From Sphingorhabdus sp. EL138 (GTDB lineage Bacteria; Pseudomonadota; Alphaproteobacteria; Sphingomonadales; Sphingomonadaceae): a DNA stretch of 64,000 nucleotides. The DNA is taken from assembly GCF_945882965.1 (NCBI RefSeq), contig NZ_CAMCWY010000002.1:1-64000 (forward strand). Direction: 5' to 3'. The notes under the pieces were generated by a model. That model had not been told where the DNA came from. It did not search any database and was given only the letters and a program-made list of their open reading frames with translations. Positions 1,320-19,611 of this stretch are shown here, piece after piece; within the stretch, counting starts at the first letter, position 1; each line of letters begins with the position of its first letter. Position numbers and translations under genes: made by a program.

Positions 1320-1775
1320 ATGAAACTGCGGGGTTGGATGGCTGCGGCTGGCGCTGCGGCGTTGATGCTTAGCGGATGCGGCGAAGGCTCATTACTGTCA
1401 GGAGGGTCAAGGTTAACTGCAGGCGAATACACTAAAGGCTCAGTCACTAAGGATGAATGGCGGCAATTATGTCAACATGCATCTGGCGGCACTCAAGGGC
1501 TTGCCTCAAGTATGACGATAACTGCAAGACCAGAGGAGTCTCACTTCATCAACAATGGCGGGATTGATGAAATAAATTTTAGGTGGGTAGAAAGTTTACC
1601 TTTAAAAAGTGACAAAGGTCACGGATGCGTGGTGGCTTTTAAATTGAGCGGAACTTACGAGGGGCGGAGTTACAACGTTTCTTTAGATAGAGAGGTTGCT
1701 GAGTTCATAGTTAATGACGAAAACGAGATCTTGGCGTCTTCTTCATGGATGACGGATATGGAGGGGGCTACATGA
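1320..1775 (+). CDS. small predicted lipoprotein
   Basis: 151 residues starting MKLRGWMAAAGAAALMLSGC, a clear type II signal peptide with lipobox LSGC. ATG at 1320 follows a GGGGGTGAGCGAG stretch; the reading from 1272 would add 16 residues before the signal. No known domain is recognised in the mature part. The stop overlaps the start of the next gene (ATGA at 1772-1775), so the two are translationally coupled. The two signal peptides are very similar (MAAAGAAAL and IAAAGAVAL), which suggests a duplicated leader or paralogous origin. Confidence 0.65.
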   Translation: MKLRGWMAAAGAAALMLSGCGEGSLLSGGSRLTAGEYTKGSVTKDEWRQLCQHASGGTQGLASSMTITARPEESHFINNGGIDEINFRWVESLPLKSDKGHGCVVAFKLSGTYEGRSYNVSLDREVAEFIVNDENEILASSSWMTDMEGAT

Positions 1776-2839
1776 AAAAGCAGGCTTGGATAGCGGCAGC
1801 TGGCGCCGTCGCGTTGCTGGTGGCGAGTTGCGGATCTCCAGAAGCAACCAACCCATTACAAAAATATGCTGGAAATCCTGACTATGTTATTGGCAAGTCA
1901 GCGGTAAGATGCATTTACTTTTTCGATATGGTGCGGGCTGGAACAAAATATAGCTATGAAAATCATCAATTTTTAGCACCACAGATGATTACTGATGAAT
2001 ACTTAATGATAATGCAATCAACATACGAAAGGGAATATCGAAATCAGTTAGAGTCTCATCGAAAAGGAATGAACGACAAAACTTATTCCAATTTGTTTAA
2101 ATCAATTTCTAATTTTTATTTTCAAAAAATTGGCGCTTCGAAACCAGATATAAATCTTTATTTGGAAAACGTTGGCCCAAGCGAAAATTCTGATATGATC
2201 CGCATCATTACTGCTTTTGGGCGAGGCAATCTCAATTTTGAGGAATATAAAGACCTATATAAAGAAATAAATCAGATTGGTGAAAATATTGATTGCGCAC
2301 TTTTGCAAGACGGAACGTATAAAGAATTCCTAAGGAAGGCCACATCTACCTCAGGTGAAGTGGCAAATGACGTGGATATTGACAGTGCTTCTGAGCGGAC
2401 CGCCGAGCCTGGAATTACAGCGACTTCTTCAATGGCTGACGGGCGGGAGACTCAAATGCCACGTAGGCAGGGCTTTCCCGCTGAAGAAACTGAAGCCACC
2501 GCCCCATCGCCTTCGCCAAATCGCAACTCCGCCATTGCTTCTCAAGCAAGGGGACCAGAGCCAATAGGGCAGTCTCGTTGGGCTAGTCGGATTATCGGGA
2601 GCTATCCTAGTCGCGCATTACGAGATCAGATCGAGGGCGTGGTAACCGTAAGCTTGTCTGTCGGCGAGAGCGGAAGAGTAGTGTCTTGCGAGGTGAGCAG
2701 CTCCAGTGGCTCCGCAATACTTGATCAAGCTGCTTGCGAAGGTATGCAGCGCCTCGCTCGCTTTAAGCCAGCCCTTGACCGCAGCGGAAACTCAATCGTC
2801 TCCAGCTGGTCTACTCGCGTAGTTTTTAAGCTTAACTGA
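1772..2839 (+). CDS. lipoprotein with C-terminal TonB-family domain
   Basis: 355 residues. ATG at 1772 overlaps the previous stop and has a GGAGGGGG ribosome site; the reading from 1745 is too early. MKKQAWIAAAGAVALLVASC is a type II signal peptide. The middle, roughly residues 25-205, is AT-rich and unrecognised. A Ser/Pro/Glu-rich linker follows at about 205-265. The last 90 or so residues (RWASRIIGSYPSRAL, IEGVVTVSLSVGESGRV, LDQAACEGMQRLARFKPA) match the TonB C-terminal fold (YPxxAxxxxxxGxVxVxxxVxxxGxV, AAxxAxxxxRFxPA). Classical TonB is anchored by an inner-membrane helix and energised by ExbBD; here the anchor is a lipid and there is no exbBD nearby, so a TonB-like structural role is more likely than energy transduction. 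Confidence 0.65.
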   Translation: MKKQAWIAAAGAVALLVASCGSPEATNPLQKYAGNPDYVIGKSAVRCIYFFDMVRAGTKYSYENHQFLAPQMITDEYLMIMQSTYEREYRNQLESHRKGMNDKTYSNLFKSISNFYFQKIGASKPDINLYLENVGPSENSDMIRIITAFGRGNLNFEEYKDLYKEINQIGENIDCALLQDGTYKEFLRKATSTSGEVANDVDIDSASERTAEPGITATSSMADGRETQMPRRQGFPAEETEATAPSPSPNRNSAIASQARGPEPIGQSRWASRIIGSYPSRALRDQIEGVVTVSLSVGESGRVVSCEVSSSSGSAILDQAACEGMQRLARFKPALDRSGNSIVSSWSTRVVFKLN

Positions 2840-2863
2840 CGAACAAGCTGTCCACCGCTGGCA

Positions 2864-3001
2864 TCATGCTGGCGAAGCACCTTCAGAAATCAGCAGCTTC
2901 CCGTAAAGTGCCTTAGCCATTTGAATTGCCTCGTAAGCGTTCGTTGCGGTGACATACTGCTGCCCAAAGCCTGCAGCCAAACTAGGGTAATCACCCGTCA
3001 T
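2864..3001 (-). CDS. 45-aa hypothetical protein coupled to the resolvase gene
   Basis: A short frame starts with ATG at 3001, inside the last codons of the resolvase gene (11-bp overlap), and ends with TGA at 2864-2866. It encodes MTGDYPSLAAGFGQQYVTAT followed by NAYEAIQMAKALYGKLLISE and GASPA. The sequence has a plausible amphipathic helix (YEAIQMAKALYGKLL) and the overlap suggests coupled translation. No family is recognised. It could instead be the C-terminal scrap of a larger gene that happens to keep an in-frame ATG. Confidence 0.4.
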   Translation of the reverse strand: MTGDYPSLAAGFGQQYVTATNAYEAIQMAKALYGKLLISEGASPA

Positions 3002-3563
3002 TCGCCCCAATCACCATTCGGCTCTCGATCTTGACTCGCTGAACCGTAGATAGCGAGATGCCGAGTTCTCTCGCAGCATTTCGCATCGATGCGCCACCTT
3101 GCAGTAGGGTTACTATTGCGTCGCGGCTGACCGACTTCGGGCGACCTTTGTATTTCCCTTTCGCCTTGGCGATGGCGATCCCTTCTTTCTGACGTTCCAG
3201 CATGACCGTTCGCTCAAACTGATACACCGCGCCCAGCATCGCCAGCAGCAGCTGTGAGATCGCGTCGCTCTTGTCGTTGGTGAAGGTCAGGCTCTCTTTC
3301 TGAAACCGCAGCACGCATCCTTTGTGCGTAATCTGCCGAACCAGCCCGTGCAGGTCTTCAATGTTGCGGGCTAGGCGAGAAATGTCGTGAACGATCACCT
3401 CGTCACCCTCGCGGATGTAATCCAGCAGCTCAACTAGCTTGGGTCGGGACACGTTTCGCGCCGACGCTTTCTCCTCGAATACCTTGTCGAGCTGGATTCC
3501 GTCCAGCTGGCGCTCCGTATTCTGATCGACTGTTGATACCCGAACGTAACCCACCTTTGCCAT
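2991..3563 (-). CDS. serine recombinase (resolvase/invertase family)
   Basis: 190 residues, the usual size for a Tn3-resolvase or Pin-type DNA invertase. MAKVGYVRVSTVDQNTERQL carries the catalytic serine motif (YxRVSTxDQNxxRQ). Other family blocks visible are VHDISRLARN, the E helix (LLAMLGAVYQFERTVMLERQKEGIAIAK), GKYKGRP and a C-terminal helix-turn-helix (AARELGISLSTVQRV). It cuts and rejoins DNA through a phosphoserine link. Two inverted repeats lie just upstream (3582-3607 and 3631-3649) and could be its res/operator sites. It sits with a Rep-like gene and a ribbon-helix-helix gene in plasmid-like debris. Confidence 0.93.
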   Translation of the reverse strand: MAKVGYVRVSTVDQNTERQLDGIQLDKVFEEKASARNVSRPKLVELLDYIREGDEVIVHDISRLARNIEDLHGLVRQITHKGCVLRFQKESLTFTNDKSDAISQLLLAMLGAVYQFERTVMLERQKEGIAIAKAKGKYKGRPKSVSRDAIVTLLQGGASMRNAARELGISLSTVQRVKIESRMVIGANDG

Positions 3564-3581
3564 TATCGTATTCCTTTAAGT

Positions 3582-3607
3582 CTATGGTATCATTGGAGAT
3601 ACCGTAG
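3582..3607. promoter_or_regulatory. inverted repeat upstream of resolvase, candidate res subsite
   Basis: Arms CTATGGTATC and GATACCGTAG pair at 9 of 10 positions around a 6-base spacer, centred about 30 bp upstream of the resolvase start. Size and position fit a resolvase binding subsite that also acts as an autoregulatory operator. The function is inferred from position. Confidence 0.4.
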
Positions 3608-3630
3608 TCGGAATGCGCGACAACATAAAA

Positions 3631-3649
3631 GAATACGGGATTCGTATTC
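3631..3649. promoter_or_regulatory. second inverted repeat upstream of resolvase
   Basis: Perfect 7-bp arms GAATACG and CGTATTC with a 5-base spacer. The half-site CGTATTC also occurs next to the resolvase start codon at about 3567-3573. Together with 3582-3607 it could make a multi-subsite res region. Confidence 0.35.
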
Positions 3650-3700
3650 GGCGGGTCGTAGTCGTTAGGGCGTGGTCAAAAAGGTCGGGTTAGCGAGTGA

Positions 3701-4138
3701 TTAAGGGTGAACCATTCTATGGTATTCATTTATCGTCAGCACTTGCCCTTGCTCGCCCCAAAAATCTTGCGCGGCATCTTGAGTGATATTCGGGCAATAA
3801 CCGACAGCGTTGTGATCGTACCCAGCGATTTTGCGGGGAACTGCATCCAGGTTATCGGCATGGCAATATACGAAAAATGCCCGACCTTTCTTTATGGCGC
3901 GCTCAATATGCCACTTTCTCTCCTCGTACCCCCTGCTCGCAAGCGGATCCATAACCTCCCATTTTTTATGCAGCGTCAGGCGGCAGTAGGGCTTGCCATT
4001 AATCATTTCTATTTCGTCCAGCCACACGCGGAAAACTACATCTTGCGAATGGGTAGTGATGGCACCCCATGACCATGAGGGATTTCGCAGGGGCGCGTCC
4101 AACAGTAGGAAGAATTTTTTGATTGTTAACTTTGCCAT
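3701..4138 (-). CDS. hypothetical protein, 145 aa
   Basis: A single open frame with ATG at 4138 and no signal peptide or membrane segment. It begins MAKLTIKKFFLLLDAPLRNP and ends GQVLTINEYHRMVHP. It is rich in Trp, Tyr and His with several Cys, suggesting a compact soluble protein. The N-terminal 'MAKLTIKKFFxLLxAPLxNPxWSWGA' looks like a conserved family start, but I cannot name the family. It is followed on the same strand by the resolvase gene after a gap of roughly 140 bp that holds the inverted repeats. Confidence 0.5.
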   Translation of the reverse strand: MAKLTIKKFFLLLDAPLRNPSWSWGAITTHSQDVVFRVWLDEIEMINGKPYCRLTLHKKWEVMDPLASRGYEERKWHIERAIKKGRAFFVYCHADNLDAVPRKIAGYDHNAVGYCPNITQDAAQDFWGEQGQVLTINEYHRMVHP

Positions 4139-6296: not shown

Positions 6297-7709
6297 ATGA
6301 CAATCAACCGCTTTGTAGCGCTTACTGTATGTGCCACGCTTACTGCTTGTGGCGGCGGAGGCAGTACATCCTCCAGTTCTCCGATCGTGCAGATACCCAC
6401 CACCACGGCACCTCCAACTACGCCGACACCTCCGCCCCCGCCTCCAACCACCTATTTCAAATCAATTATGTCGCCTGCGAACGTTGGACTGCAGTTGCAA
6501 CTCAAAAGAGAAGCGTTTGCCGTGGAAGACGTGAACGGCGATGGCATCAAGGATCTGCTGCTTGCCAACTCAGGTGATGCAGGATCTGCCGTTAAAGATA
6601 CGGACCCAAGGATGGTGGTCTTTTTTGGCAAAGCAGACGGCACATATTCCAAAGTTGATACAAGCAATCTGAACCCACTCGGATGGGCGAACGATTTCAT
6701 TTTTCTCGATTCAGACAACGATGGCATTAAAGAAATCCTTGTGATTGATCATAATAGAGAAGTTACAGGACGACCGCTGGGTGTATCCAAAATCTTTGTA
6801 TATGAGTGGGATGGAAGCAAATTTCAGAACCTCACTTCTTCTATTCCTGATAATACCGAAGCATTCTGGCACAACGGGAGTGTCGGTGATTTGAACGGGG
6901 ACGGGTTGCTCGATTTTTCAGCGGTTACGATTTCTGGCGAGAGCAAGATTTTTTCGGGATCGAAGAGCAACCAATTTACACTCTCAAAATCATTTAGTCA
7001 GAATGAGGTTGGGTCCACGGGTGCAACCGTTGTCCTCGCAAAGGAGAAACTTGCCGTTTTCCTTCCATTTGACAGTTGGGACGGACCTATAGATTTTAAG
7101 AATATGGAAGTCGTCAGAGACGGCAAAATAATTCAAAAACAGGATGCACGTACAGGCGTGTTGCCACCAGAGTGGGGATACTCATTCGCGCTTACCAAGG
7201 ATTTGAATGGCGATGGTCGAACCGACTTCATTGCCATCGCCGAAGACCCAGGGACTGGCGCAACTGGGATCCGTATCTTTGTCACTTTTATGCAAAGGGC
7301 GGACGGGACGTTTGATATTTTTAACAGTTTCCCGAGCGAGAGTCAGTTAACCGATCCTAAACGAGCAGCAAAATTTGATTGGATTTGGTCCGACTATAAA
7401 TTTCAGTTGGCGGATATGGATGGTGATGGGAAAACGGATCTCTTTTGGGGGTCGTGGGATCACGCGACGCCGTCTGAATTGCCGAGCAGTCTATTTTTTG
7501 GCGACGGGACAGGGCGCTTTTTCCGCAATGCAGAGAAATCTAAAACGCTATTTAAAGATGTAGTCTGGACAGGTGATGCCAGGACCTTCGTTGATGATGT
7601 GAACGGCGATGGGTTGGGTGATCTCGTCGTCGTGACCAATGTCTTTACTTCGAACACCTCCCAAACCGTTACCCCAATGGTTTTCTTAAACCAAGGTACG
7701 TTTCGTTAA
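6297..7709 (+). CDS. FG-GAP/VCBS repeat lipoprotein
   Basis: 470 residues with lipoprotein signal MTINRFVALTVCATLTAC. A low-complexity Ser/Thr/Pro linker follows (PPTTPTPPPPPPTT), then a beta-propeller-like region. At least six Ca2+-loop motifs of the FG-GAP/VCBS type are visible: DVNGDGIKDLLL, DSDNDGIKEILV, DLNGDGLLDFS, DLNGDGRTDFIAI, DMDGDGKTDLFWG and DVNGDGLGDLVVV. It should sit on the cell surface or in the periplasm and bind calcium, in adhesion or substrate binding. ATG 6297 follows GAGGGGAACCTGAA, a usable ribosome site. It stands alone between two copies of a 21-bp repeat and just left of a tRNA-Gly scar. Confidence 0.8.
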   Translation: MTINRFVALTVCATLTACGGGGSTSSSSPIVQIPTTTAPPTTPTPPPPPPTTYFKSIMSPANVGLQLQLKREAFAVEDVNGDGIKDLLLANSGDAGSAVKDTDPRMVVFFGKADGTYSKVDTSNLNPLGWANDFIFLDSDNDGIKEILVIDHNREVTGRPLGVSKIFVYEWDGSKFQNLTSSIPDNTEAFWHNGSVGDLNGDGLLDFSAVTISGESKIFSGSKSNQFTLSKSFSQNEVGSTGATVVLAKEKLAVFLPFDSWDGPIDFKNMEVVRDGKIIQKQDARTGVLPPEWGYSFALTKDLNGDGRTDFIAIAEDPGTGATGIRIFVTFMQRADGTFDIFNSFPSESQLTDPKRAAKFDWIWSDYKFQLADMDGDGKTDLFWGSWDHATPSELPSSLFFGDGTGRFFRNAEKSKTLFKDVVWTGDARTFVDDVNGDGLGDLVVVTNVFTSNTSQTVTPMVFLNQGTFR

Positions 7710-7945: not shown

Positions 7946-7994
7946 CACTTGCCAAGGTTGGGGTCGAGGGTTCGAATCCCTTCGCCCGCTCCAG
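7946..7994 (+). repeat. tRNA-Gly(GCC) 3'-half att scar A
   Basis: Bases from TTGCCAA (anticodon loop, GCC anticodon) through the GAGGG-TTCGAAT-CCCTT T arm, CGCCCGC acceptor strand, T73 and CCA. No 5' half (a GCGGGCG start) is present upstream, so it is not a functional tRNA but a 3' fragment of the kind left by tyrosine-recombinase integration. Identical 46-base cores occur at 10396 and 16556, and a diverged one at 57545. Confidence 0.85.
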
Positions 7995-8100: not shown

Positions 8101-8172
8101 ATGGACTCTGCTGGATTACCACCAAAAACTGGGAATCGGGCGACGCCAACGGTTCGTCCGAATAAGATCTAA
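8101..8172 (+). pseudogene. 23-codon frame beside att scar A, possible truncated integrase start
   Basis: ATG 8101 follows a GAGGGGGCGTTT ribosome site and reads MDSAGLPPKTGNRATPTVRP then NKI and a stop. Position and orientation, about 105 bp downstream of the tRNA scar, are where an island integrase normally begins. The rest is replaced by the convergent acr3 gene. The similarity to an integrase is positional only. Confidence 0.25.
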
Positions 8173-8183
8173 GAAGCATCAAA

Positions 8184-9245
8184 TCAGACCTTGCGAGACA
8201 TTGAGTTCGCGAAGTGGCGCCGACCTAATCTAATCGCTATCCCCACGAGTAGAACTAGCACAGGAACTTCAACCAATGGTCCGATCACCGCTGCAAACGC
8301 AATAGGCGAGGCAAGACCAAATGCGGAGATTGCAACAGCAATCGCGAGTTCGAAATTGTTGGATGCTGCGGTGAATGCCAGCGAGACCGTCCTCGGATAA
8401 TCCAAGTCAATCATCTTCCCCATGAAGAAACTGACAGTAAACATGATCAGGAAGTAGATCCCCAGCGGTACCGCGATGCGAAGTGCATCCAACGGCAATG
8501 CGAGCACGTCGCCACCCTTTAGACTGAACATGGCGACGATCGTGAACAACAAGGCAATAAGCGTAATCGGAGCGATTTTCGGCAGGAAATTTGTCACGAA
8601 CCAGTCCTCGCCACGCTGACGAATGAGAATTGCTCGCGTCAAAAATCCAGCAGCAAATGGAATGCCAAGGTAAATCAGCACTGCCTGAGCAATGGTCCAG
8701 AAACTTACGTCAACAACCTGCGCTTCCAGTCCAAATGCGGATGGCAGGAACGTAAGATAGAACCATGCAAAAGGGGCAAAGAATAGAATTTGGAAGACTG
8801 AGTTGAAGGCGACGAGACCTGCCACATACTGACTGCTACCGCCAGCAAGTTGGTTCCAGACGAGCACCATTGCGATGCACCGAGCAAGTCCAATCAGTAT
8901 CACGCCAGTCATATATTCTGGTTGATCGCGCAGGAAGATCACCGCCAGGGCAAACATCAATGCTGGTCCGATCAACCAGTTCTGAACCAACGAAAGCACG
9001 AGAACACGCTTATCCTGGAACACTTCACCCAGACGCTCATATTTCACCTTCGCGAGAGGGGGATACATCATCAGGATTAGACCTACCGCAATGGGTAGGT
9101 TGGTCCCATCAACGGACAGCGCATCCAGCGATTGCGGAAGCGCAGGAAATGCAGCGCCAAGTGCAACTCCCAGCGCCATTGCCGCAAAAATCCAGAAGGT
9201 CAGATATCGATCAAGGAACGACAGACGAGACGTCGTTCTGTTCAT
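8184..9245 (-). CDS. acr3: ACR3-family arsenite efflux transporter
   Basis: 353 residues with about ten hydrophobic segments. [48 protein letters not shown] and [20 protein letters not shown] are hallmark ACR3 (BASS-superfamily) blocks; Cys in ARCIAMV is the conserved thiolate implicated in As(III) translocation. It exports arsenite from the cytoplasm using the proton gradient. The start ATG 9245 overlaps the arsC stop (ATGA at 9242-9245). It is the last gene of arsR-arsC-acr3, induced by arsenite through ArsR. Confidence 0.95.
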
Positions 9246-10103: not shown

Positions 10104-10315
10104 GTATCCAGATTTACAGATATATAAGAAATGAGCAATCCTCAAATCGCGTAAGCGCAACCTCAAAAACGGGTCCCATATTCACCTTGCTTAAAACGGG
10201 GTTTAGCGGGGACTTGTTTTCATTAAGATCGCCGAGGAAACTCTGAAAAGTTTCCAACCAAAATCCGTCAAAAATTCTGCGCTGCAAAATTGGAATTTGC
10301 TAGGGTTGCAACATC

Positions 10316-10395
10316 AAATTTGATAAACGTAACATAAACGGATTTGCAGAAGTCCATAATTATTGTTTAATATCAGAATATTGCTGTCGACCGGT
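10316..10395. repeat. element right-end sequence, copy next to tRNA-Gly scar B
   Basis: Matches 7868-7945 in the TTTGATAAACGTAACATAA block and spacing to the tRNA half. With scars A and B it defines the arsenic genes as a discrete insert. Confidence 0.5.
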
Positions 10396-10444
10396 CACTT
10401 GCCAAGGTTGGGGTCGAGGGTTCGAATCCCTTCGCCCGCTCCAG
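10396..10444 (+). repeat. tRNA-Gly(GCC) 3'-half att scar B
   Basis: Same 3' tRNA half as 7946-7994 over its full length, including CACTTGCC at the left edge and CCAG at the right. The downstream bases (TGATTTCAATG) are shared with scars C and D, suggesting the original chromosomal flank of the tRNA gene. Confidence 0.85.
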
Positions 10445-10880
10445 TGATTTCAATGACTTAGGTGATACCGCCTTTGCTGCTCAAAGCGGGCTTGCAGCCT
10501 GCGTTTTAATCAGCGTTCTGATTGGAACGCCCGCGTAAAAATCTTGGAAATTCAGCGTTTAAGTCGGCCTGGGATGCGGCATGGCCGGTATACGCAATTG
10601 GTATTGCGTCAATCATTGTGTTCAGCTCGTTCCTAAAAACGGATGAGCGAACTCATCCGTAACGCTTTGGGACCGGTCCGCGCAATCCCAAACCCCACAA
10701 AAGCCAAATTTATCCGGGAATAGCCGTTGGCGTCCAACACCGTTCGCCAGCGTTCCAATGGGAACAGTTTGCCCTGACGGAAAGCTTAAGCGGCCATCGT
10801 GCTTGATCGGTTATCATGGCAGCTTCTGGGCCGGGAGCGGACTGTCGGCTTTGCGGTTTGGAGCTAGGCAATGCAGAAGT
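10445..10880. repeat. long dispersed repeat, copy 1 (tRNA-Gly downstream flank)
   Basis: About 400 bp that closely match 16602-17001, and in part 47160-47480. It holds a palindrome AATCAGCGTTCTGATT (10508-10523), a perfect 8-bp hairpin CGGATGAG/CTCATCCG with a CGAA loop (10640-10659), GGACCGGTCC, and a terminal GGGCCGGGAGCGGACTGTC motif (10828) found elsewhere in the window. A short frame in it reads FKSAWDAAWPVYAIGIASII and is conserved in the other copies. No convincing gene lies between its end and the terminator at 11065. Confidence 0.7.
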
Positions 10881-11064
10881 CAGTCCGACACACGATACGG
10901 TGGTAACGGATACTTCCTATGTCCGCACCCTCATTTCTGAAGCCTCATGCAAAGACTTCGCCCCACATTACGCGAGGCTAGTGATACTTTTCGATATCGA
11001 TATGGGGGTGGTCTTGGCAGGCGTGGTGCTCATCACACATTGCCCGCAAGCATATGTAAAGGCC

Positions 11065-11096
11065 GCCGGCCGCTGAACGGGGGTAAAGCGACCGGC
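11065..11096 (-). terminator. hairpin downstream of fasciclin gene
   Basis: Arms GCCGGCCGCT and AGCGACCGGC pair at 9 of 10 positions (one G-U) around a 12-base loop, just after the fasciclin stop. On the minus strand it is followed by only a short T run, so it is a weak intrinsic terminator candidate. Confidence 0.45.
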
Positions 11097-11110
11097 ACCG
11101 AAGCTACCAA

Positions 11111-11650
11111 TTAAGGCAGCAATACCGAATCAATGACGTGGACAACGCCGTTTGACTGCATAAGGTCAACGGCGGTGACGGTAGACTGTCCGCCCTTGCC
11201 ATCGGTGATGACGACGCTGTTACCCGACAAACGCGCGGCCAGCTTTTCGCCTGCGACTGTTGTAAGCATAGCGTTGCCTTCGCCCGCCTTGATGGCAGCG
11301 ACGATGTCAGTAGAAGTCAATTTACCAGCAACTACATGATAGGTCAGGATCTTGGTCAAGGTTGCCTTGTTCTCTGGCTTCACGAGCGTACCAACTGTAC
11401 CTTCAGGAAGTTTTTCAAAGGCGGCGTTGGTTGGCGCAAACACTGTAAATGGACCTGGGCTTGCGAGCGTGTCGATAAGGCCAGCGGCCGTCACAGCGGC
11501 GACCAATGTGCTCAGATCTGGCACGGCTGACGCGGTTTCAACGATATTTTTCATTGCGACCATTTTGTGGTTGTCAGCCATTACTGCTGTGCCGGCGAGG
11601 GATGAAGTTGCCAATGCGATGGCGGTGATTAAACGGCTAGTAAGCTTCAT
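11111..11650 (-). CDS. secreted fasciclin (FAS1) domain protein
   Basis: 179 residues from ATG 11650 with a GGAACAC ribosome site. MKLTSRLITAIALATSSLAG...AVMA is a Sec signal peptide. One FAS1 domain fills the rest: NIVETASAVPDLSTLVAAV, GPFTVFAPTNAAFEKLPEGT (the H1 motif), LTYHVVAGKL and GVVHVIDSVLLP (the H2 motif). These proteins act in adhesion or envelope stress outside the cytoplasm. The gene stands alone with its own hairpin terminator. An inverted repeat GCGCTTT/AAAGCGC (11673-11698) lies just upstream and could be a control site. Confidence 0.9.
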   Translation of the reverse strand: MKLTSRLITAIALATSSLAGTAVMADNHKMVAMKNIVETASAVPDLSTLVAAVTAAGLIDTLASPGPFTVFAPTNAAFEKLPEGTVGTLVKPENKATLTKILTYHVVAGKLTSTDIVAAIKAGEGNAMLTTVAGEKLAARLSGNSVVITDGKGGQSTVTAVDLMQSNGVVHVIDSVLLP

Positions 11651-12417: not shown

Positions 12418-12791
12418 ATCTGGGCGCAAAGCGGAAGGTCATTAATTGGGCCGGAAACGGACTGTCAGGTTTAAGCCCTAAACGCTTCAATAAGCCCAGC
12501 CTGCCAAACCATTGCAGCAGCGGGTTCTGGAAATCACATAGCAATAACGTTGCAAATCTATCCATCAGCCCGCGTGTACAGAGAAATATCTGCGTTAGCG
12601 TATCGCCGACTGGAACAGGGCGATCCAGATTTGGGATCGGCTTGAGGCGTTGCGTGCCCGCGGGAGCCCAACATTTATACATCGACGCAGTTAAGCAAGA
12701 GTGCAGCAAAGCTTCAAAAAATGTTTTGGAAAAAATGTTGTAAAACGGAAGTGACTAGTATACCACAAACATAGACTAGGAGCACAAAATA
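12418..12791. other. intergenic region upstream of the candidate precursor gene
   Basis: Contains a degenerate copy of the GGGCCGG-x-CGGACTGTC motif (12448) and an AT-rich stretch at 12710-12765 that probably holds the promoter of the downstream gene. No -35/-10 pair with standard spacing is convincing. AGGAG at 12778-12782 is the ribosome site for the ATG at 12792. Confidence 0.35.
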
Positions 12792-13013
12792 ATGAAGATC
12801 CACAATCTTGATAAATCCAAACTTCTCGGGTTCAACCTAGTCGGGGATCCTCTTTTTGACGTCGTGACCCACACAAATAAGTCACAGCAATCGCACGACG
12901 TGGCCACAGGTAAAGCTGTGGGCGGTGGTGGCAAGCCTGTTGGAACCAGCAAGGTTATTGGAGCCAGCAAGGTTATTGGAATCAGCAAGGCTGAAGGCAG
13001 CTTCAAGGTCTAG
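12792..13013 (+). CDS. candidate RiPP precursor peptide with repeated core
   Basis: 73 residues with a strong AGGAG ribosome site 9 bases before the ATG. The N-terminal half (MKIHNLDKSKLLGFNLVGDP LFDVV) is leader-like with alternating hydrophobic and charged residues. A Gly-rich hinge (GGGG) follows, and the C-terminus consists of four 6-residue units, KPVGTS, KVIGAS, KVIGIS and KAEGSF, plus a terminal KV. Small size, a repetitive Ser/Lys core and direct adjacency to an HExxH peptide-hydroxylase-like gene (22-bp gap) argue for a ribosomally made, modified peptide. The leader matches no class I can name. No protease or dedicated exporter is adjacent. The precursor role is an inference. Confidence 0.55.
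   Translation: MKIHNLDKSKLLGFNLVGDPLFDVVTHTNKSQQSHDVATGKAVGGGGKPVGTSKVIGASKVIGISKAEGSFKV
12933..13004 (+). repeat. four in-frame 18-bp repeats in the precursor gene
   Basis: Four consecutive 18-bp units begin at 12933, 12951, 12969 and 12987, each starting AAG. Units 2 and 3 differ by only two bases (AAGGTTATTGGAGCCAGC and AAGGTTATTGGAATCAGC). They encode the K-x-x-G-x-S/F repeats, so the core has grown by tandem duplication. Confidence 0.85.
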
Positions 13014-13035
13014 TCCACCCCCTGAGCGAAGATAA

Positions 13036-14121
13036 TTGCCGTCCCTTCCCGAGTTTGGCAGCAGAACTGCAATGATCACAGCCGGTTCGACAGCTGTCTG
13101 TAGGCCCGTTGAACAAACGTTAGAGGCTCCGCGTGAGCCATTCCCCATTAATATTCGAATGGCACAAAGTTTGCGAGAACTCGAACGGGTCATCCCCAAG
13201 TGTGAGACGCATCAAAGCTTCGTTCCCGTTGCCGAACATCTCGAAGCAAGTGGCACCGTGGAACCCGAGGCGTTCGCGGCCTACTTTTCGATTATACGGT
13301 CTCTGCTTGGCAACCGCAATGTCGATTTAGCGCCATTGTGTTCTCTTATTTACCGAGGGAGAAGGCCGATCACAGCGCAAATTGCAGTGAGAGTTCTAAA
13401 TTCCCGAGAATTTGGTAACTCAGGAATTCATAGTGTGCGAAAGAATTTTGCCTCAACATCACTGACAGCAAGGCAAATGGCGCTGATCTCGAAGGTTGCA
13501 GAGCCAGAGATTAAGCGAAAGATTTCAGCTGCGCTGTGCTTGATCCAGGTAAAAGCTCCCCACGCATCTTCTGCGCTATTTCCCATTACCGCCGAGATTG
13601 TTGCAACGGTAGGGGTACCACGCAATGGCATGGACTTCGACGGCTGCAGCAGTATCGAACGTTATGGTTCGATCCTTCTTAACATGCGCCGCAAGCGTAC
13701 ACGGCTCGTGCTGGCTGAAACCATAATCCACGAGAGCGCTCATTCGTTGCTCTTCGCACTTAGTTGCAATGATCACCGAGTCCTCAACTCAGCGTCGGAG
13801 ACCTACAGGAGTCCGCTAAGGATTGATCCACGGCCTCTAGACGGCATCTACCATGCGGTGTTCGTGATCGCGCGTATGTATAGCTTTCTTGCTGAAATAG
13901 CTTTAAATCCAGCAACAAGTTCACGAATGCGGGCCGAGGCCTGCAAACTTCTGCCAGTACGCCACCGCAATTTTCAAGACGGCTTATCGGTGTTGGTCGC
14001 GCATGCGCGCTTGACGCCAATTGGACGTGAACTGCTCGATGACGCTGTAGAACGGGTCGAACGTGCGGCTGATCAAGTGTGTGCGGTCTTCCCAGAGTTC
14101 AAACCCCGCCAAGTAGTCTAA
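13036..14121 (+). CDS. HExxH-type peptide beta-hydroxylase-like RiPP enzyme
   Basis: 361 residues from TTG 13036 (GAGCGAAG upstream); ATG 13072 is an alternative that removes 12 residues. Residues 228-240 read AETIIHESAHSLL, the HExxH metal motif, followed by YRSPLRIDPRPLDGIYHAVF at 257-276, which supplies a third His and the 'SPxRxDPRPLxGxxHAxFV' block typical of HExxH peptide-modification proteins (TIGR04267 type). Characterised members of that group use iron and 2-oxoglutarate to hydroxylate side chains of RiPP precursors rather than acting as proteases. The N-terminal 200 residues are probably helical and may bind the leader. It follows the precursor-like gene by 22 bp and overlaps the convergent ATP-grasp gene by 23 bp. 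Confidence 0.7.
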   Translation: MPSLPEFGSRTAMITAGSTAVCRPVEQTLEAPREPFPINIRMAQSLRELERVIPKCETHQSFVPVAEHLEASGTVEPEAFAAYFSIIRSLLGNRNVDLAPLCSLIYRGRRPITAQIAVRVLNSREFGNSGIHSVRKNFASTSLTARQMALISKVAEPEIKRKISAALCLIQVKAPHASSALFPITAEIVATVGVPRNGMDFDGCSSIERYGSILLNMRRKRTRLVLAETIIHESAHSLLFALSCNDHRVLNSASETYRSPLRIDPRPLDGIYHAVFVIARMYSFLAEIALNPATSSRMRAEACKLLPVRHRNFQDGLSVLVAHARLTPIGRELLDDAVERVERAADQVCAVFPEFKPRQVV

Positions 14122-15931
14122 TCATTTTTGACAAGACCATTGGTGGCAGTACTTCCTTCAGATTTCTATGGTTGCGCAAGACTGAACCGACCCGAAATAT
14201 CTGGGCGCTAGCCTTAAAGGGCAAGCCTGTTATCAAAAATTCGTCTGTCTGAACCACCACGATAAGCACCTCGATATCGGTATCGCGGAGCAAAGCGGTA
14301 CATCGCTGCGTAAGTGTTGCCATCTCAGCAAAACGATATTCGGTGCCACAGTGACCAAGCGACAGAGCGTGGGTGGTTAGCGCTGCCCTAGTTCCGGCAT
14401 TGGTAAGTTCATTCAGTCTTCGACGTGCCGCTTGCAAGGCCTGGGCGCCACCCACGAAACACTCGACAGGAATGCACCCGCTCGTTTCATTGGGAAACAT
14501 CGCATCAATATTCGCTCTGGCTGTATTCTCACCAATCTGTGGTTCGAAGTTAATCTCGCTAATAGCCGCACCATTCTCATACCAAGGCTTTGTTGGGTCT
14601 GGCGAGACAAGGTCAGCACCTAAGCTTTCCAAGCGAAAAAGTCTGGATAGCCGTTCGACAAGCGCGATGTTTTCCGGATGAACTTTATCCGTTATTACTT
14701 CGTTATGGCCGGCATATTCTTTCAGGTTCGCGGCCCGAAGAAAAGCCAGTTGGTCAACTGCTAAGACATCATCAGGTGTGAACCCCTGTGAGGACAAGCA
14801 ATCTAGCGCTTCGTCGTCGAAGGGAAGAGGTGCGGTCTGCAAATGCTTGGCCTTACAGTTATGCGCATTGTTAAACGCGTTCAACAAATCGCGAATGGAT
14901 TTGAAGCCGTCACCCTTCACGGCTGACGGTAAACGCGAATACGCGAAAACAAACCGCCCGCCAAAAGTCACTAGGCGGTGGCAGTGTCCGGGAATACGGC
15001 TTTGAACCATAATACGTGGAGACAGTTTTCGGGCCGCCTCGAAGGCAGATTGAACCGCCATATCTGACCTCAGATCCAAGAAGACCCCTTCACTGCGTTC
15101 CAAATTTGCAGGCTTCAATACGACAGGAAACCCGATCTTGTTTGCAGCTTCCACGGCCGCGTTGCTGTCTTGAACCTTGATACTCTGAGGGACCGGCGCG
15201 CCCACGCCTTTGAAAAATACTTCGGATAAATCTTTTCTGTTAGAGATATTTGCGCCCAATACAGAGTCGCGGTCAGTTGAGCTTTTCCTGATCAGTCGTG
15301 CGTGTTTGCCTGTGCCAAGCTGAAATACGCCTGATCCAAGATGGGATATTTGAATGCCGCGTTTATGGGCTTCCCTCAGCACCGGTATGGTCGACACCCC
15401 GCGCATCAGCACCTGTTGCATGGAAATCAAAAATTTGCCGAGTAAGGCATCCGCCGCCTCTTTGAATGCAGCTTGATCTGGGTTTGCAAGCAATTTGAGG
15501 AGGATTACACTGTAGCCATAAGCTCGGGCAATTTGCTTTTCATCGTAATTCTCAATCGCAGGGACATTTGCTTTGATAGAGTAAGTATTTTTAGTAGCAT
15601 CGGCAACCTGAATGCTTTGAACAAATTCGGTGGAAAAGGAGGGACAGCCTCCATCTCGCAAAATGCTGCGTGCTAACGCAAACGCGCATTGTATATATTG
15701 CTCGACATGCAAAGGTATACCGAAAGATTTTGGAATTTGGAGCGCGTTGACTTCCTCCAGGTTCATTAGGAAGATGTTGGACAACACCGTTGTTGCAGTA
15801 TCAATAACAAATTCAGTTGGAGCAGTGAAAGTCATCACGATAGAGACCGATTGCTGCTCTATTCCAAACCCGTAACCCAACAGCTGGGCCGAAGCGTTAA
15901 CCTTCAAATTCTTATCAGATATTTGATCCAT
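14099..15931 (-). CDS. cyanophycin-synthetase-like ATP-grasp ligase
   Basis: 610 residues. Residues 1-195 form an N-terminal domain. LGSGVFQLGTGKHARLIRKS at about 197-216, then STDRDSVLGANISNRKDLSE, IGFPVVLKPANLERSEGV (about 266-283, with the ATP-binding Lys) and ISEINFEPQIGENTARANID follow the order seen in the central ATP-grasp of cyanophycin synthetases. The MurE-like ligase half of CphA is missing; the remaining C-terminal 120 residues are unrecognised. ATP-grasp ligases join a carboxylate to an amine, thiol or alcohol. Next to a Lys/Ser-rich precursor this suggests adding an amino acid or forming an isopeptide or ester link. It is convergent with the HExxH gene and needs its own promoter. 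Confidence 0.65.
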   Translation of the reverse strand: MDQISDKNLKVNASAQLLGYGFGIEQQSVSIVMTFTAPTEFVIDTATTVLSNIFLMNLEEVNALQIPKSFGIPLHVEQYIQCAFALARSILRDGGCPSFSTEFVQSIQVADATKNTYSIKANVPAIENYDEKQIARAYGYSVILLKLLANPDQAAFKEAADALLGKFLISMQQVLMRGVSTIPVLREAHKRGIQISHLGSGVFQLGTGKHARLIRKSSTDRDSVLGANISNRKDLSEVFFKGVGAPVPQSIKVQDSNAAVEAANKIGFPVVLKPANLERSEGVFLDLRSDMAVQSAFEAARKLSPRIMVQSRIPGHCHRLVTFGGRFVFAYSRLPSAVKGDGFKSIRDLLNAFNNAHNCKAKHLQTAPLPFDDEALDCLSSQGFTPDDVLAVDQLAFLRAANLKEYAGHNEVITDKVHPENIALVERLSRLFRLESLGADLVSPDPTKPWYENGAAISEINFEPQIGENTARANIDAMFPNETSGCIPVECFVGGAQALQAARRRLNELTNAGTRAALTTHALSLGHCGTEYRFAEMATLTQRCTALLRDTDIEVLIVVVQTDEFLITGLPFKASAQIFRVGSVLRNHRNLKEVLPPMVLSKMIRLLGGV

Positions 15932-16399
15932 AAAACGCCAGCATGTCTTCCTGATGTGTCTGAAATTGTGTTAATGCATTTTCATTCTGCAAACAGCCCT
16001 AAAGATTAGATAGGGACGCAACCGCCGGACGTGGCATCATAAACCCGCAGCAGGAGCCCGAGCGGTTATGCACCTCCTAAGAACGAGCGCTTTCAGTCGA
16101 AAGAGAGATACTGCTAAATCGAGTTACAATGCCAGCTGGTTTCTGACAAGGCCAGCCCGTCGAAGATTGCATATCGGACCAGACATTGCTCTACTCCCAA
16201 CGATTTGCTCCGTGGTCGGGTTTAGGTCGCGTTGACAAAAGGGATACCCGCGGCATTCGCACTTTAGAACTCTGCAAATGGCAGCTTACCCTATGCGCTG
16301 CGCCATAAACTGCCGTTCCGAATCGTCCAACAAGCTAGCCGTATCAACGTTGCTGATGCAATGTCCGCTAATGATGAAACCATCTGGCGTCTATAATGA
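15932..16399. other. intergenic region upstream of the ATP-grasp gene
   Basis: About 470 bp with no supported gene on either strand. It should hold the ATP-grasp promoter. Confidence 0.3.
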
Positions 16400-16555: not shown

Positions 16556-16601
16556 CTTGCCAAGGTTGGGGTCGAGGGTTCGAATCCCTTCGCCCGCTCC
16601 A
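16556..16601 (+). repeat. tRNA-Gly(GCC) 3'-half att scar C
   Basis: 46-base 3' tRNA half identical in core to A and B, followed by ATGATTTCAATG. No 5' tRNA half precedes it. Confidence 0.85.
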
Positions 16602-17123: not shown

Positions 17124-17801
17124 TCATCCGCCAATACGCTGCATGCCCGCCGAAACTTGCGTTAATATATGATCCTCGAACGGTTTCCTTAAGCAGAGCC
17201 GTCCATAATAGCTTCGTACATTGGTCGGGATGCCGAGTTCGAGCTCTTCTGGGCACCGCATCAGTCGGTGGAGCCAGCCGCCCAGCGCGAAGTCGGCGAT
17301 GCCCAAATTTTGTCCGCCAAGGAAGTTTTTATCGCCCAATAAAAGCTCTAGCATGCCAAGTTGTGGTTTTAGCAAAGAGATAGCTACCGAACAGCTTTCC
17401 AACGTGGCGTCAGAATTCTTATAGGCGGCTCGAACCGCACTGACGGCGCGGGCAAAGGCCGGGCCCCAATCCATAATCGCTTCAGCCTGAGCGCGTTCAA
17501 AAGGGTCCAAGGGAATCATATCGCCTTTGGCGTATACCGCGCATAGATAGCGAACGATGGCTTGCGATTCCCAAAGAGTCCGGCCATCGGGCAACTCTAC
17601 CGCCGGGATGGTGCCAGCCGGATTGCGCGCGCGGTGTGCCGGATCGTCGTTGCCCCCAAAGGCTCCGCCCCAGTCGACTCTTCGATAAGGCAAATTGAGC
17701 TCGCCGATGGTCCACATCACCCGTGAAACAGCTGAACTGTCGGGCCGTCCCCAGACAATGATGGGCGAGCTATCGTTCAAGTCTGCTTGTGGGTCAGGCA
17801 C
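17124..17801 (-). CDS. glutathione S-transferase-like protein
   Basis: 225 residues from GTG 17801, which overlaps the ABC-transporter stop by 8 bp. The N-terminal thioredoxin-like domain is recognisable (WGRPDSSAVSRVMWTIGELN, NPAGTIPAVELPDGRTLWES QAIVRYL, with the cis-Pro and ES glutathione contacts), followed by the all-helical domain (FLGGQNLGIADFALGGWL with the N-capping Asp). It conjugates or peroxidatively uses glutathione in the cytoplasm. It is the last gene of an operon headed by phnF and phnM, so it may detoxify a product of phosphonate breakdown. That role is inferred from position. Confidence 0.85.
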   Translation of the reverse strand: MPDPQADLNDSSPIIVWGRPDSSAVSRVMWTIGELNLPYRRVDWGGAFGGNDDPAHRARNPAGTIPAVELPDGRTLWESQAIVRYLCAVYAKGDMIPLDPFERAQAEAIMDWGPAFARAVSAVRAAYKNSDATLESCSVAISLLKPQLGMLELLLGDKNFLGGQNLGIADFALGGWLHRLMRCPEELELGIPTNVRSYYGRLCLRKPFEDHILTQVSAGMQRIGG

Positions 17802-19611
17802 AGATCAACGCGTCCGGGCGGTGGCTGGCGATCTCGAAAAGCTGGCGATAGCGGCCATTTCGGCGTTGCATGAGCAGCTTGTGGTTTCCTTCCTCAACAA
17901 TCGCACCGTCGTCGAAAACCAATATGCGATCAACCTGTTCAACCGTCGATAGCCGGTGCGCGATAACGATCGTTGTTCGTCCATAAGCAAGCTCACGGAC
18001 GGCCTCCTGCACCAACCGTTCGGTTTCTGTGTCTAGGCTAGACGTCGCCTCGTCAAGGAGCAGGATGGGACGATCTGCCAATATCGCCCGGGCGATGGCA
18101 ATACGTTGCCTTTCTCCGCCAGACAATTTTGCCCCGCGTTCGCCTACGACCATGTCATAGCCTTTTTCAAGTCGAACGATAAAATCGTGCGCGCGTGCGC
18201 GCTTCGCGGCATCAATGATGTCCTCAAGACTCGCGTCAGGTCGCCCATAGGCAATGTTTTCAGCTAGGCTGCGGTGAAAGAGCACAGGTTCTTGGGGGAC
18301 AACCGATGTAATGCTCCGCAATTGTTCAAGCCGCATGGAAGCGACATCATTGCCGTCGATCAGGATTTTACCCTGCTGGGGTTCATAAAGTCGCTGAATC
18401 ATTTTGACGATCGTCGACTTTCCCGAACCCGATGGACCGACCAGTGCCACCTGCTCGCCGGCATCAATCGTGAAGCTCAGACTGCGATACACAGCGCCGC
18501 CATTGGGATATGCAAAACTAACTTGTTCGAAACGGATTGCACCGTCCACCGCTATTTTGGCGGGTTCACCGCTCGGCGCCAATTCTACTGGATCGGACAA
18601 TAGAAACTCTGCCGCATCCTCCAGCTCAGCATAAGCACGTTGAAAAACTCTGATGTCTTGTCCCAATGTCCGCAACTGGCCCGAGAGCATGAGCAGCGCA
18701 GAAATGGCAAAGGCCAGTTCTGCCGTGCCTGCCTTTTGCAGCGTCGCCTGCCACGCAATGGCTCCAAGAACGCTCATTTGAGTGATGGTCCATAAAAGCA
18801 TCTGGATGGCGTTTGTGTCGGTGGCTCGGTTGAACGAGGGCGCCGCTGCGGCGAGCCATTCGTTCGAAACGGCCTGCAGTCTTTTGTCTTCGCGCGCTTC
18901 GGCGGCAAAGGCCTTAACCGTTGCATTATTTGTGACCGCGTCGGCCAAAGCCCCTGTCAACCGACTGTCACGCGATGCTGAGATTACACCGAGCGGTCTC
19001 ACCCATTTTGCAGACAAGAACCAGCTCACCGTCAGATAGAAACCAGTGCAGATAAAGAATGCAATACCCGCATAGGGCACAGCAACATACATCATTCCGC
19101 CAAGCACGAGCATGAGAAGCAGCGGCTGCAGCAGCCGAAGTATTATGATATTGCTGATCATGTCCAGCGCCCATCGGGCGCGTGAGATGCGGTGGACCGT
19201 GGCGCCGGAAAATGCGTTGCTGTGCCAATCGGCCGACATTCGCTGCACGCGGGCAAAGAGGTCCATCTGCAGGCGTTGCATCGACCGAGCCGTGAGCCCG
19301 TTCCATAACCTGTCCAATAGCTGCTTCAATATGATGGCAACGGTCATGGCTCCGCCTGCAAATGCGAAATGGTGCCATAGTTCATTTGCCGGGTCGGCGC
19401 GGCCAGGGTTACTGACCGCATCGACCAATCGGCCAAGCGCAACCGGGGTAAGCGACTCTGCCCCGATCATCGCAAAAAGCAAGACGAAAACGAGCACAAT
19501 AGTCCCACGTTCAATCAGCCAATAGCGTGCAAAGGCAGCCAACGTCTGCCGCCAGTCTAGTGTTGTCGTTCGCCGCGGAACATAGCCCGGATTTCCACCG
19601 CCGCCACTCAT
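17794..19611 (-). CDS. ABC transporter, fused permease-ATPase (exporter type)
   Basis: 605 residues. The N-terminal 330 residues are a six-helix type-1 exporter membrane domain (FARYWLIERGTIVLVFVLLF and so on). The ATPase has Walker A GPSGSGKST, signature LSGGERQR, Walker B ILLLDEATSSLD and the switch His in IAHRLST. It works as a dimer in the inner membrane. ATG 19611 overlaps the previous stop (ATGA). Its place in a phnF-led operon is odd because known Phn importers are PhnCDE; an exporter of a toxic intermediate or an adduct made by the downstream GST is a plausible inference. Confidence 0.9.
   Translation of the reverse strand: MSGGGGNPGYVPRRTTTLDWRQTLAAFARYWLIERGTIVLVFVLLFAMIGAESLTPVALGRLVDAVSNPGRADPANELWHHFAFAGGAMTVAIILKQLLDRLWNGLTARSMQRLQMDLFARVQRMSADWHSNAFSGATVHRISRARWALDMISNIIILRLLQPLLLMLVLGGMMYVAVPYAGIAFFICTGFYLTVSWFLSAKWVRPLGVISASRDSRLTGALADAVTNNATVKAFAAEAREDKRLQAVSNEWLAAAAPSFNRATDTNAIQMLLWTITQMSVLGAIAWQATLQKAGTAELAFAISALLMLSGQLRTLGQDIRVFQRAYAELEDAAEFLLSDPVELAPSGEPAKIAVDGAIRFEQVSFAYPNGGAVYRSLSFTIDAGEQVALVGPSGSGKSTIVKMIQRLYEPQQGKILIDGNDVASMRLEQLRSITSVVPQEPVLFHRSLAENIAYGRPDASLEDIIDAAKRARAHDFIVRLEKGYDMVVGERGAKLSGGERQRIAIARAILADRPILLLDEATSSLDTETERLVQEAVRELAYGRTTIVIAHRLSTVEQVDRILVFDDGAIVEEGNHKLLMQRRNGRYRQLFEIASHRPDALICA

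Follow-up and report, generated by a model that had tools for sequence, protein, structure and literature searches.

The three neighboring genes discussed here lie within a 64,000-nucleotide stretch of DNA from Sphingorhabdus sp. EL138 (contig NZ_CAMCWY010000002.1, positions 1 to 64,000; hereafter the window) and encode a small peptide with a leader and a lysine-spaced repeat, a relative of the HExxH-type peptide beta-hydroxylases, and an ATP-grasp ligase resembling the cyanophycin synthetases CphA1 and CphA2. It was observed directly that these genes are linked, that both enzymes are homologous to known enzyme families and that the peptide is built of a leader and repeats, and we have little doubt that the genes form a unit with the design of a ribosomally synthesized and post-translationally modified peptide (RiPP) system. 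That the trio represents an undescribed RiPP family, in which the HExxH enzyme would hydroxylate the core and the ATP-grasp enzyme would amidate it, most likely on the periodic lysines, is a reading of the sequences in which we place about even confidence. A preliminary description of this DNA had proposed an unclassified RiPP locus of this composition, and the relatives bore it out: a peptide with the leader motif was encoded just upstream of the HExxH gene, on the same strand, in 17/17 testable loci, an ATP-grasp gene was found near the HExxH gene in 16/18, and the enzymes did not consistently occur apart and without a short repeat peptide.

The precursor gene of the window (73 amino acids (aa), positions 12792-13013, + strand) starts with ATG in the list of open reading frames (ORFs), and the ribosome-binding site AGGAG (12778-12782, +) can be read directly ahead of it. 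Its product carries the leader motif LDKSKLLGF (12807-12833, +) and ends in the core KPVGTS-KVIGAS-KVIGIS-KAEGSF-KV (12933-13010, +), where five lysines stand at an exact spacing of 6 (K48, 54, 60, 66, 72). A gap of 22 bp, measured to the TTG of the HExxH ORF, separates the two genes, and RNA folding of these 22 nucleotides gave no structure of note. The earlier sketch of the gene order, with a strong ribosome site, this gap, a HESAH-bearing protein and a convergent 610-aa ATP-grasp, was thus confirmed. No NCBIfam model matched any of five precursors tested and no Pfam model any of three, and a profile built from five precursors found no other strong match among the loci collected by then. The 73-aa frame is taken as a real gene by comparison, a further 21 peptides built in this way being encoded upstream of HExxH relatives.

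Relatives were sampled by HExxH similarity, with a close locus defined as one whose HExxH protein matched profile A1 at 1e-40 or better. After removal of duplicates this gave 18 loci (the window, L010-L013, L020-L022, L045-L049 and L057-L061), with stretches of 7 to 20 kb examined per locus. Seven of these loci were used to build A1 and match it by construction; L022, L045-L049 and L057-L061 were found by HExxH similarity alone, and among these 11 later-found loci the peptide was present in 11/11 and an ATP-grasp in 9/11. Locus L012 could not be tested for a precursor because its stretch begins inside the HExxH gene. The remaining 17 loci yielded 22 peptides, including two in tandem in L057 and five tandem paralogues in L058 (7033-8064) with similar leaders and varied GLKxGxKG-like cores. 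As the search expression for precursors was written after the peptides had been seen, a random control matters here; the expression matched 5 of at most 3,000 random stretches from the same loci. It also matched 0/9 of the distant HExxH loci L023-L031, in which profiles detected either ATP-grasp type in 0/9 as well.

Comparison of the leaders, which the preliminary description had called for, revealed a common [L/I]DxSKLLG[F/Y] in all 22 precursors, with L020 and L021 fitting loosely. Inspection by eye upstream of the 22 precursor ATGs found GGAG in 10, another purine-rich stretch in 10 and no clear site in 2 (L058b and L059). The cores consist of GxxKxx units in the window, L010, L011 and L013 and are KxGxKxG-like in the others, with the poorest repeats in L048 and L049; the L049 peptide (6997-7206) has two GRLFSKRG repeats. 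Counted after the leader motif and with the spacer included, Lys numbers range from 3 to 9 per peptide, Gly numbers from 1 to 15 and Asp/Glu numbers from 1 to 9. Lysine is the reactive group that stays constant from repeat to repeat. The idea of a Lys/Ser repeat therefore held only in part, since Lys and Gly are conserved and Ser is not, with none in the GAVKPA units of L013 and one in the repeats of L011. The L013 repeats also contain no acidic residue, and Asp/Glu have no fixed place in the other repeats. C-terminal residues are not conserved across the 22 precursors, some of which (L022, L047 and L058d) end in long non-repeat tails. A conserved leader followed by a variable core beside modifying enzymes, as seen in these 22 precursors from 17 loci, is the arrangement that defines RiPP precursors.

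The regularity of the lysines was examined by shuffling in five of the 22 precursors (the window, L010, L011, L013 and L022), with the C-terminal part from residue 29 shuffled and runs counted at any spacing from 3 to 10. A Lys run equal to that of the window precursor was reached in 69/20,000 shuffles, and the corresponding values per 20,000 were 0 for L010, 191 for L011, 227 for L013 and 1 for L022. All five peptides showed exact Lys spacing with run lengths of 4 to 9, and the period of 6 seen in the window recurs in L010, L011 and L013, with a period of 4 in L022.

The second gene of the trio (13036-14121, +) encodes a 361-aa protein that scored 99.1 bits against the NCBIfam model TIGR04267, above its cut-off of 40; the scan took in three of the 18 close proteins, and the other two, L022 and L013, scored 87.8 and 105.4 bits. 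Profile A1, made from seven relatives, matched the solved hydroxylase ChlH (PDB 8s5f) at 3.9e-12. In that alignment HESAH (residues 232-236, 13729-13743, +) falls on HEHRH of ChlH, and SPLRIDPRPLDGIYHAVF (residues 259-276, 13810-13863, +), already singled out beside HESAH in the preliminary description, falls on SPWREDLRPPSGLLHAIF and is a signature of the family. The H, E and second H of HESAH, which we take to be the metal-binding motif, with the metal and alpha-ketoglutarate (aKG) roles of single residues likewise presumed, are invariant in seven aligned proteins. The start of the protein is uncertain and may lie at 13072, since homology to the relatives begins near residue 31 and there is an ATG at codon 13. 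By these comparisons the protein is assigned to the aKG-HExxH peptide beta-hydroxylase family (TIGR04267), and beta-hydroxylation would follow from this membership. The residues hydroxylated by characterized members are His, Asp, Phe, Gln and Pro (PMC12636437, PMC13060819); for two of these enzymes, PflC and PosC, the targets are runs of Gln, and both also cleave at ARMD (PMC12636437).

The third gene (14099-15931, −) encodes the 610-aa CphA2-like ATP-grasp ligase and is convergent to the HExxH ORF, with an overlap of 23 bp. Its relationship to cyanophycin synthetases was indicated by the PRK14016 model, by PDB profiles and by Foldseek, although its scores of 211.5 against PRK14016 (cut-off 877) and 192.1 against another cyanophycin synthetase model (cut-off 850) stayed below both thresholds. 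The best solved relatives by profile were CphA1 (4.6e-60) and two CphA2 entries (1.3e-52 and 2.4e-52). In an alignment with Deinococcus ficus CphA, the N domain and the ATP-grasp (G) domain (14492-15331, −, limits approximate) were kept, and the Mur-ligase-like M domain was reduced to about 90 residues (14216-14476, −, limits approximate) with the remainder missing and the P-loop GTNGKST replaced by VGGAQAL. The likeness to CphA recognized at first sight was therefore upheld, and the MurE-like half, which had been thought wholly absent, survives as a degenerate remnant. The ligase lacks the working, P-loop-bearing M domain of cyanophycin synthetase 1 and has the architecture of cyanophycin synthetase 2, namely N, G and a truncated M without P-loop and lid. 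CphA2 also has neither P-loop nor lid in its M domain (PMC9427784), and the architecture is called CphA2-like for this reason.

Active-site residues of TeCphA1, as named in PMC9427784, were transferred by eye through the D. ficus alignment. K220, K261, R309, D431 and E450 are kept as K233, K273, R319, D440 and E459, and R323 and N394, which contact the incoming Asp in TeCphA1, are kept as R333 and N402. H267, S396 and R458, the last two in the Asp pocket (PMC9427784), are changed to R279, K404 and G467. Because the residues for ATP, Mg and the acyl phosphate are kept and the pocket is changed, the enzyme should, judging from its residues, still form an acyl phosphate and accept a different amine. 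Of two structural models, the first reached a predicted local distance difference test (pLDDT) score of 51.6 and the second, from 6 sequences, 61.7; the latter, a low-confidence model used only in the fold search, matched CphA1 at 1.3e-27 and CphA2 (7ta5) at 6e-26 over 578 columns, with the graspetide synthetase PsnB at rank 26 (1.2e-8). A plasmid search with the ATP-grasp matched 100 records, and among the 20 listed, 19 were annotated as cyanophycin synthetase and one as CapA family. The CapA-annotated protein, encoded on a Microvirga ossetica plasmid (L038, 3671-6685), contains a CphA-like ATP-grasp and lies beside type I secretion genes. Locus L011 has two more CphA-like ATP-grasp genes in tandem (89-1750 and 2011-3735), some 4 kb away from its precursor gene.

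The ATP-grasp genes of the close loci belong to two types, one CphA-like (7 loci: the window, L010, L011, L012, L021, L022 and L048) and one divergent (9 loci: L013, L020, L045, L046, L047, L057, L058, L060 and L061, with two genes each in L020 and L058), and both types together were found in 0/18 loci. In L020 the two copies of the second type (8126-9091 and 10309-11436) flank the peptide and HExxH genes. None of the 11 second-type proteins had a Pfam or NCBIfam match below 0.01, and their profile matched the D-Ala-D-Ala ligase 5nrh at 1.6e-4, in the C-terminal part only, with an ExN motif present. An hhalign comparison of this type with the CphA-like set was negative, no common profile being detectable.

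In the HExxH tree, several other branches of which are poorly supported, L013 forms a clade with the window, L010, L011 and L012 (support 0.998), inside which the four CphA-like loci stand apart from L013 (0.959). Locus L013 has the second ligase type and shares the GxxKxx core with the CphA-like loci of the window, L010 and L011, from which it seems, at the level of sequence, that the ligase was exchanged and the core retained. The replacement of one ATP-grasp type by another with which it shares no detectable profile argues that a ligation step would be required and would be directed at the same core.

In the reading that we favor, the N-terminal [L/I]DxSKLLGF segment would recruit the enzymes, and the HExxH enzyme, using Fe(II), O2 and alpha-ketoglutarate, would beta-hydroxylate Lys or neighboring residues of the Lys/Gly core once per repeat. 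The ATP-grasp enzyme would turn a carboxylate into an acyl phosphate and couple it to an amine. The periodic lysines would most likely provide this amine through their epsilon-amino groups, and the product would be an isopeptide-linked (aminoacylated or acylated) Lys. Leader removal and transport of the product would fall to general cell proteins, or the product may act inside the cell; the cut itself may be made by general proteases, by the HExxH enzyme as PflC can, or not at all. An amide on the Lys side chain is favored over C-terminal extension and over graspetide-like cross-links because Lys is constant, the L013 repeats have no acids and the C-termini vary. A bolder version, in which beta-hydroxylated lysines at even spacing would receive amino acids or acyl groups on their epsilon-amines from the ligase, so that a ribosomally templated, branched, cyanophycin-like polymer would be built and kept in the cell, as a new RiPP class, is offered tentatively as a possibility.

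Several observations weigh against hydroxylation and lysine amidation of the core. Loci L049 and L059 have the peptide and no ATP-grasp in the approximately 13 kb examined (12.8 kb in L049), of which L049 could possibly be a ligase-free branch. The L049 peptide also has few Lys, and that of L048 has one Gly after the leader motif. The assignment of the second type as ATP-grasp, made from a motif and a weak D-Ala ligase match, is less certain. A CphA-like protein (1.7e-101) also occurs without HExxH in another genome, G388 (L039, 8753-10579), where the neighbors look sugar-related by eye. Lys is so far not among the residues hydroxylated by characterized HExxH enzymes in the available text of PMC13060819. 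The G domain of CphA activates the C-terminus of a peptide and uses a free amino acid as the amine (PMC9427784), the opposite of the arrangement proposed here. Additionally, all 22 peptides have Asp/Glu beyond the leader motif, so an acidic partner is possible for most, and no exporter or protease family recurs beside the trio in the 18 loci.

The strongest competing explanation, which we consider unlikely but deserving of weight, is a CphA2-like C-terminal extension, in which the hydroxylated peptide would serve as a primer and amino acids or dipeptides would be added to its end, or peptide units would be joined head to tail. This is exactly the reaction of the CphA G domain (PMC9427784), the window enzyme resembles CphA2 along most of its sequence and has the equivalents of R323 and N394 in place, and the cationic side chains are reminiscent of the Arg of cyanophycin. 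Such an enzyme would, however, meet last residues that vary among the precursors and, in three of them, the long tails described above; two residues of its Asp pocket as well as H267 are replaced, and the many periodic lysines would be left without a reason.

Graspetide-like intramolecular lactams, which would link Lys to Asp/Glu and be accompanied by hydroxylation in the manner of corallotide, appear improbable. Corallotide combines KxxxD repeats, an ATP-grasp enzyme and a 2-oxoglutarate oxygenase (PMC13097080), and the presence of acidic residues in every precursor would allow such bonds. The acid-free GAVKPA repeats of L013 and the unfixed acidic positions elsewhere speak against them, as does the fold search, in which the modeled ligase appeared far closer to CphA than to PsnB. 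Among the linkages first suggested for the product, the side-chain cross-link of graspetide type is thus left without a conserved acidic partner in the repeats.

Improbable to a similar degree is a role for the HExxH enzyme in cleaving the backbone, oxidatively or hydrolytically, which would supply leader removal and make hydroxylation secondary. PflC and PosC set the precedent, and small residues (Ala, Gly), of which the Gly-rich cores offer many, favored alpha-hydroxylation and cleavage in PflC (PMC12636437). No protease recurs in these loci that could do this work instead, but no conserved cleavage tetrapeptide was found by eye in the 22 precursors. Least probable of all is that the small peptide serves the enzymes as a partner or regulatory subunit, or binds nucleic acids as a Lys-rich peptide, and that the enzymes act elsewhere, since, although short basic peptides are able to bind nucleic acids and no exporter recurs, the leader is conserved, the cores vary in repeat number and sequence, and L058 and L057 carry tandem paralogues, all of which is typical of precursors.

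The neighboring genes were surveyed by clustering ORFs of at least 80 aa from the 18 close loci, and 12 clusters recurred in at least 3 loci. These comprised HExxH, the two ligase types, six sets of antisense frames lying opposite HExxH, ligase or murA-like genes, a murA-like gene (by eye) and a second gene that L045, L047 and L057 all have near one insertion site, and ORFs of ABC type. By this clustering neither an exporter nor a protease regularly accompanies the set, so the absence of both noted at first for the window extends to the family. An exporter-like ABC ORF (17794-19611; ABC_tran 1.8e-35, ABC_membrane 1.7e-15, under every NCBIfam cut-off shown) does lie 1.9 kb from the ligase gene of the window, outside the right-hand tRNA repeat described below, and L057 has a related ORF (1393-3231) about 1.1 kb away from its ligase gene. 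In L013 the ABC-type ORF encodes an ATPase and is about 6 kb distant, and the remaining 15 of the 18 loci have no member of this cluster. An ABC exporter is therefore possible in two loci, the window and L057. Cyanophycinase was absent from the clusters recurring in at least 3 loci, which were not joined by a dedicated search for it.

The trio lies between two attachment-site-like repeats of a tRNA-Gly 3' end (10398-10443, +, to its left and 16556-16601, +, to its right). These and a third copy at 7948-7993 are perfect 46-bp repeats; an intact tRNA-Gly(gcc) on contig C20 of the same genome has the matching 3' end, and a 38-bp part of the repeat also occurs at C2:78571 and C20:44318. The region is a tRNA-linked accretion array. 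The repeats split it into cargo blocks that hold arsenic-related-looking genes (by eye), a fasciclin gene and the trio, and a serine recombinase (Resolvase PF00239, 1.4e-32) is encoded near the array at 2991-3563. When 41 genomes from the genus, its own included, were searched at the DNA level, pieces on both sides of the trio found matches, and among the matches listed none covered positions 12476-16307 outside its own genome. A junction in genome G025 was considered as an empty site and rejected, as its repeat blocks are in a different order.

The HExxH gene was found in 0/147 related genomes besides its own (1/148 at 1e-5, the one being its own genome). This absence and the location in the tRNA-Gly array indicate that the trio was probably acquired by horizontal transfer. 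Elsewhere, HExxH relatives were detected in 2/396 genomes of the order of the window at 1e-15 (the second one distant), 8/385 of the class sample at 1e-5 (mostly distant), 6/398 of the phylum sample at 1e-40, 8/198 of the family of genome G1121 at 1e-40, and 4/10 of the order of genome G486 at 1e-12 (two distant); a scan of genome contigs was the source of 4 loci. The HExxH profile had no match in the viral contigs scanned, and on plasmids solely distant HExxH relatives were seen (5 records, and 4 records in another scan).

Among the nearest known systems are the aKG-HExxH hydroxylases ChlH, PflC/PosC, BpmH and PesO, with membership in the same family above the cut-off, HExxH and SPxRxDxRPxxGxxHAxF shared with ChlH, and a RiPP context; their partners are radical S-adenosylmethionine, multinuclear non-heme iron oxidase or Asn-synthetase-like enzymes (PMC12636437, PMC13060819), whereas the window pairs the hydroxylase with a Lys/Gly repeat and an ATP-grasp. 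The ligase shares with CphA2/CphA1 the N and ATP-grasp domains, the truncated M domain without P-loop (CphA2) and the catalytic ATP, Mg and Arg residues (PMC9427784), and it differs in falling far under the NCBIfam cut-offs, in its changed amino-acid pocket and in having a peptide gene and a hydroxylase as neighbors. Graspetides, especially corallotide (PMC13097080), likewise pair an oxygenase with an ATP-grasp whose substrate is a Lys-containing repeat peptide, but both enzymes belong to other families, and the repeats described here have neither a conserved acidic donor nor an acidic partner at a fixed position, the best ligase matches being CphA1/CphA2 and not the PsnB/MdnC type. The main text of a graspetide survey (PMC8939145) contains 0 occurrences of HEXXH, cyanophycin or CphA. 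The earlier view that no described class combines the three components agreed with a search of the open literature, with subscription papers mostly outside it, in which no paper, including the available text of PMC9262961, PMC10206079 and PMC12452194, brings a CphA-like ATP-grasp together with an aKG-HExxH enzyme or describes the precursor.

Altogether, hydroxylation and amidation of a lysine-spaced core would add a RiPP family defined by the pairing of an aKG-HExxH hydroxylase with a CphA2-like ligase, a pairing absent from the papers searched. It would broaden the substrate range known for both enzymes and would be a case in which a gene-encoded peptide has recruited a storage-polymer synthetase. 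The five-precursor array of L058 is a natural library and, together with the exchange of two ligase types on one core, makes the chemistry directly testable.

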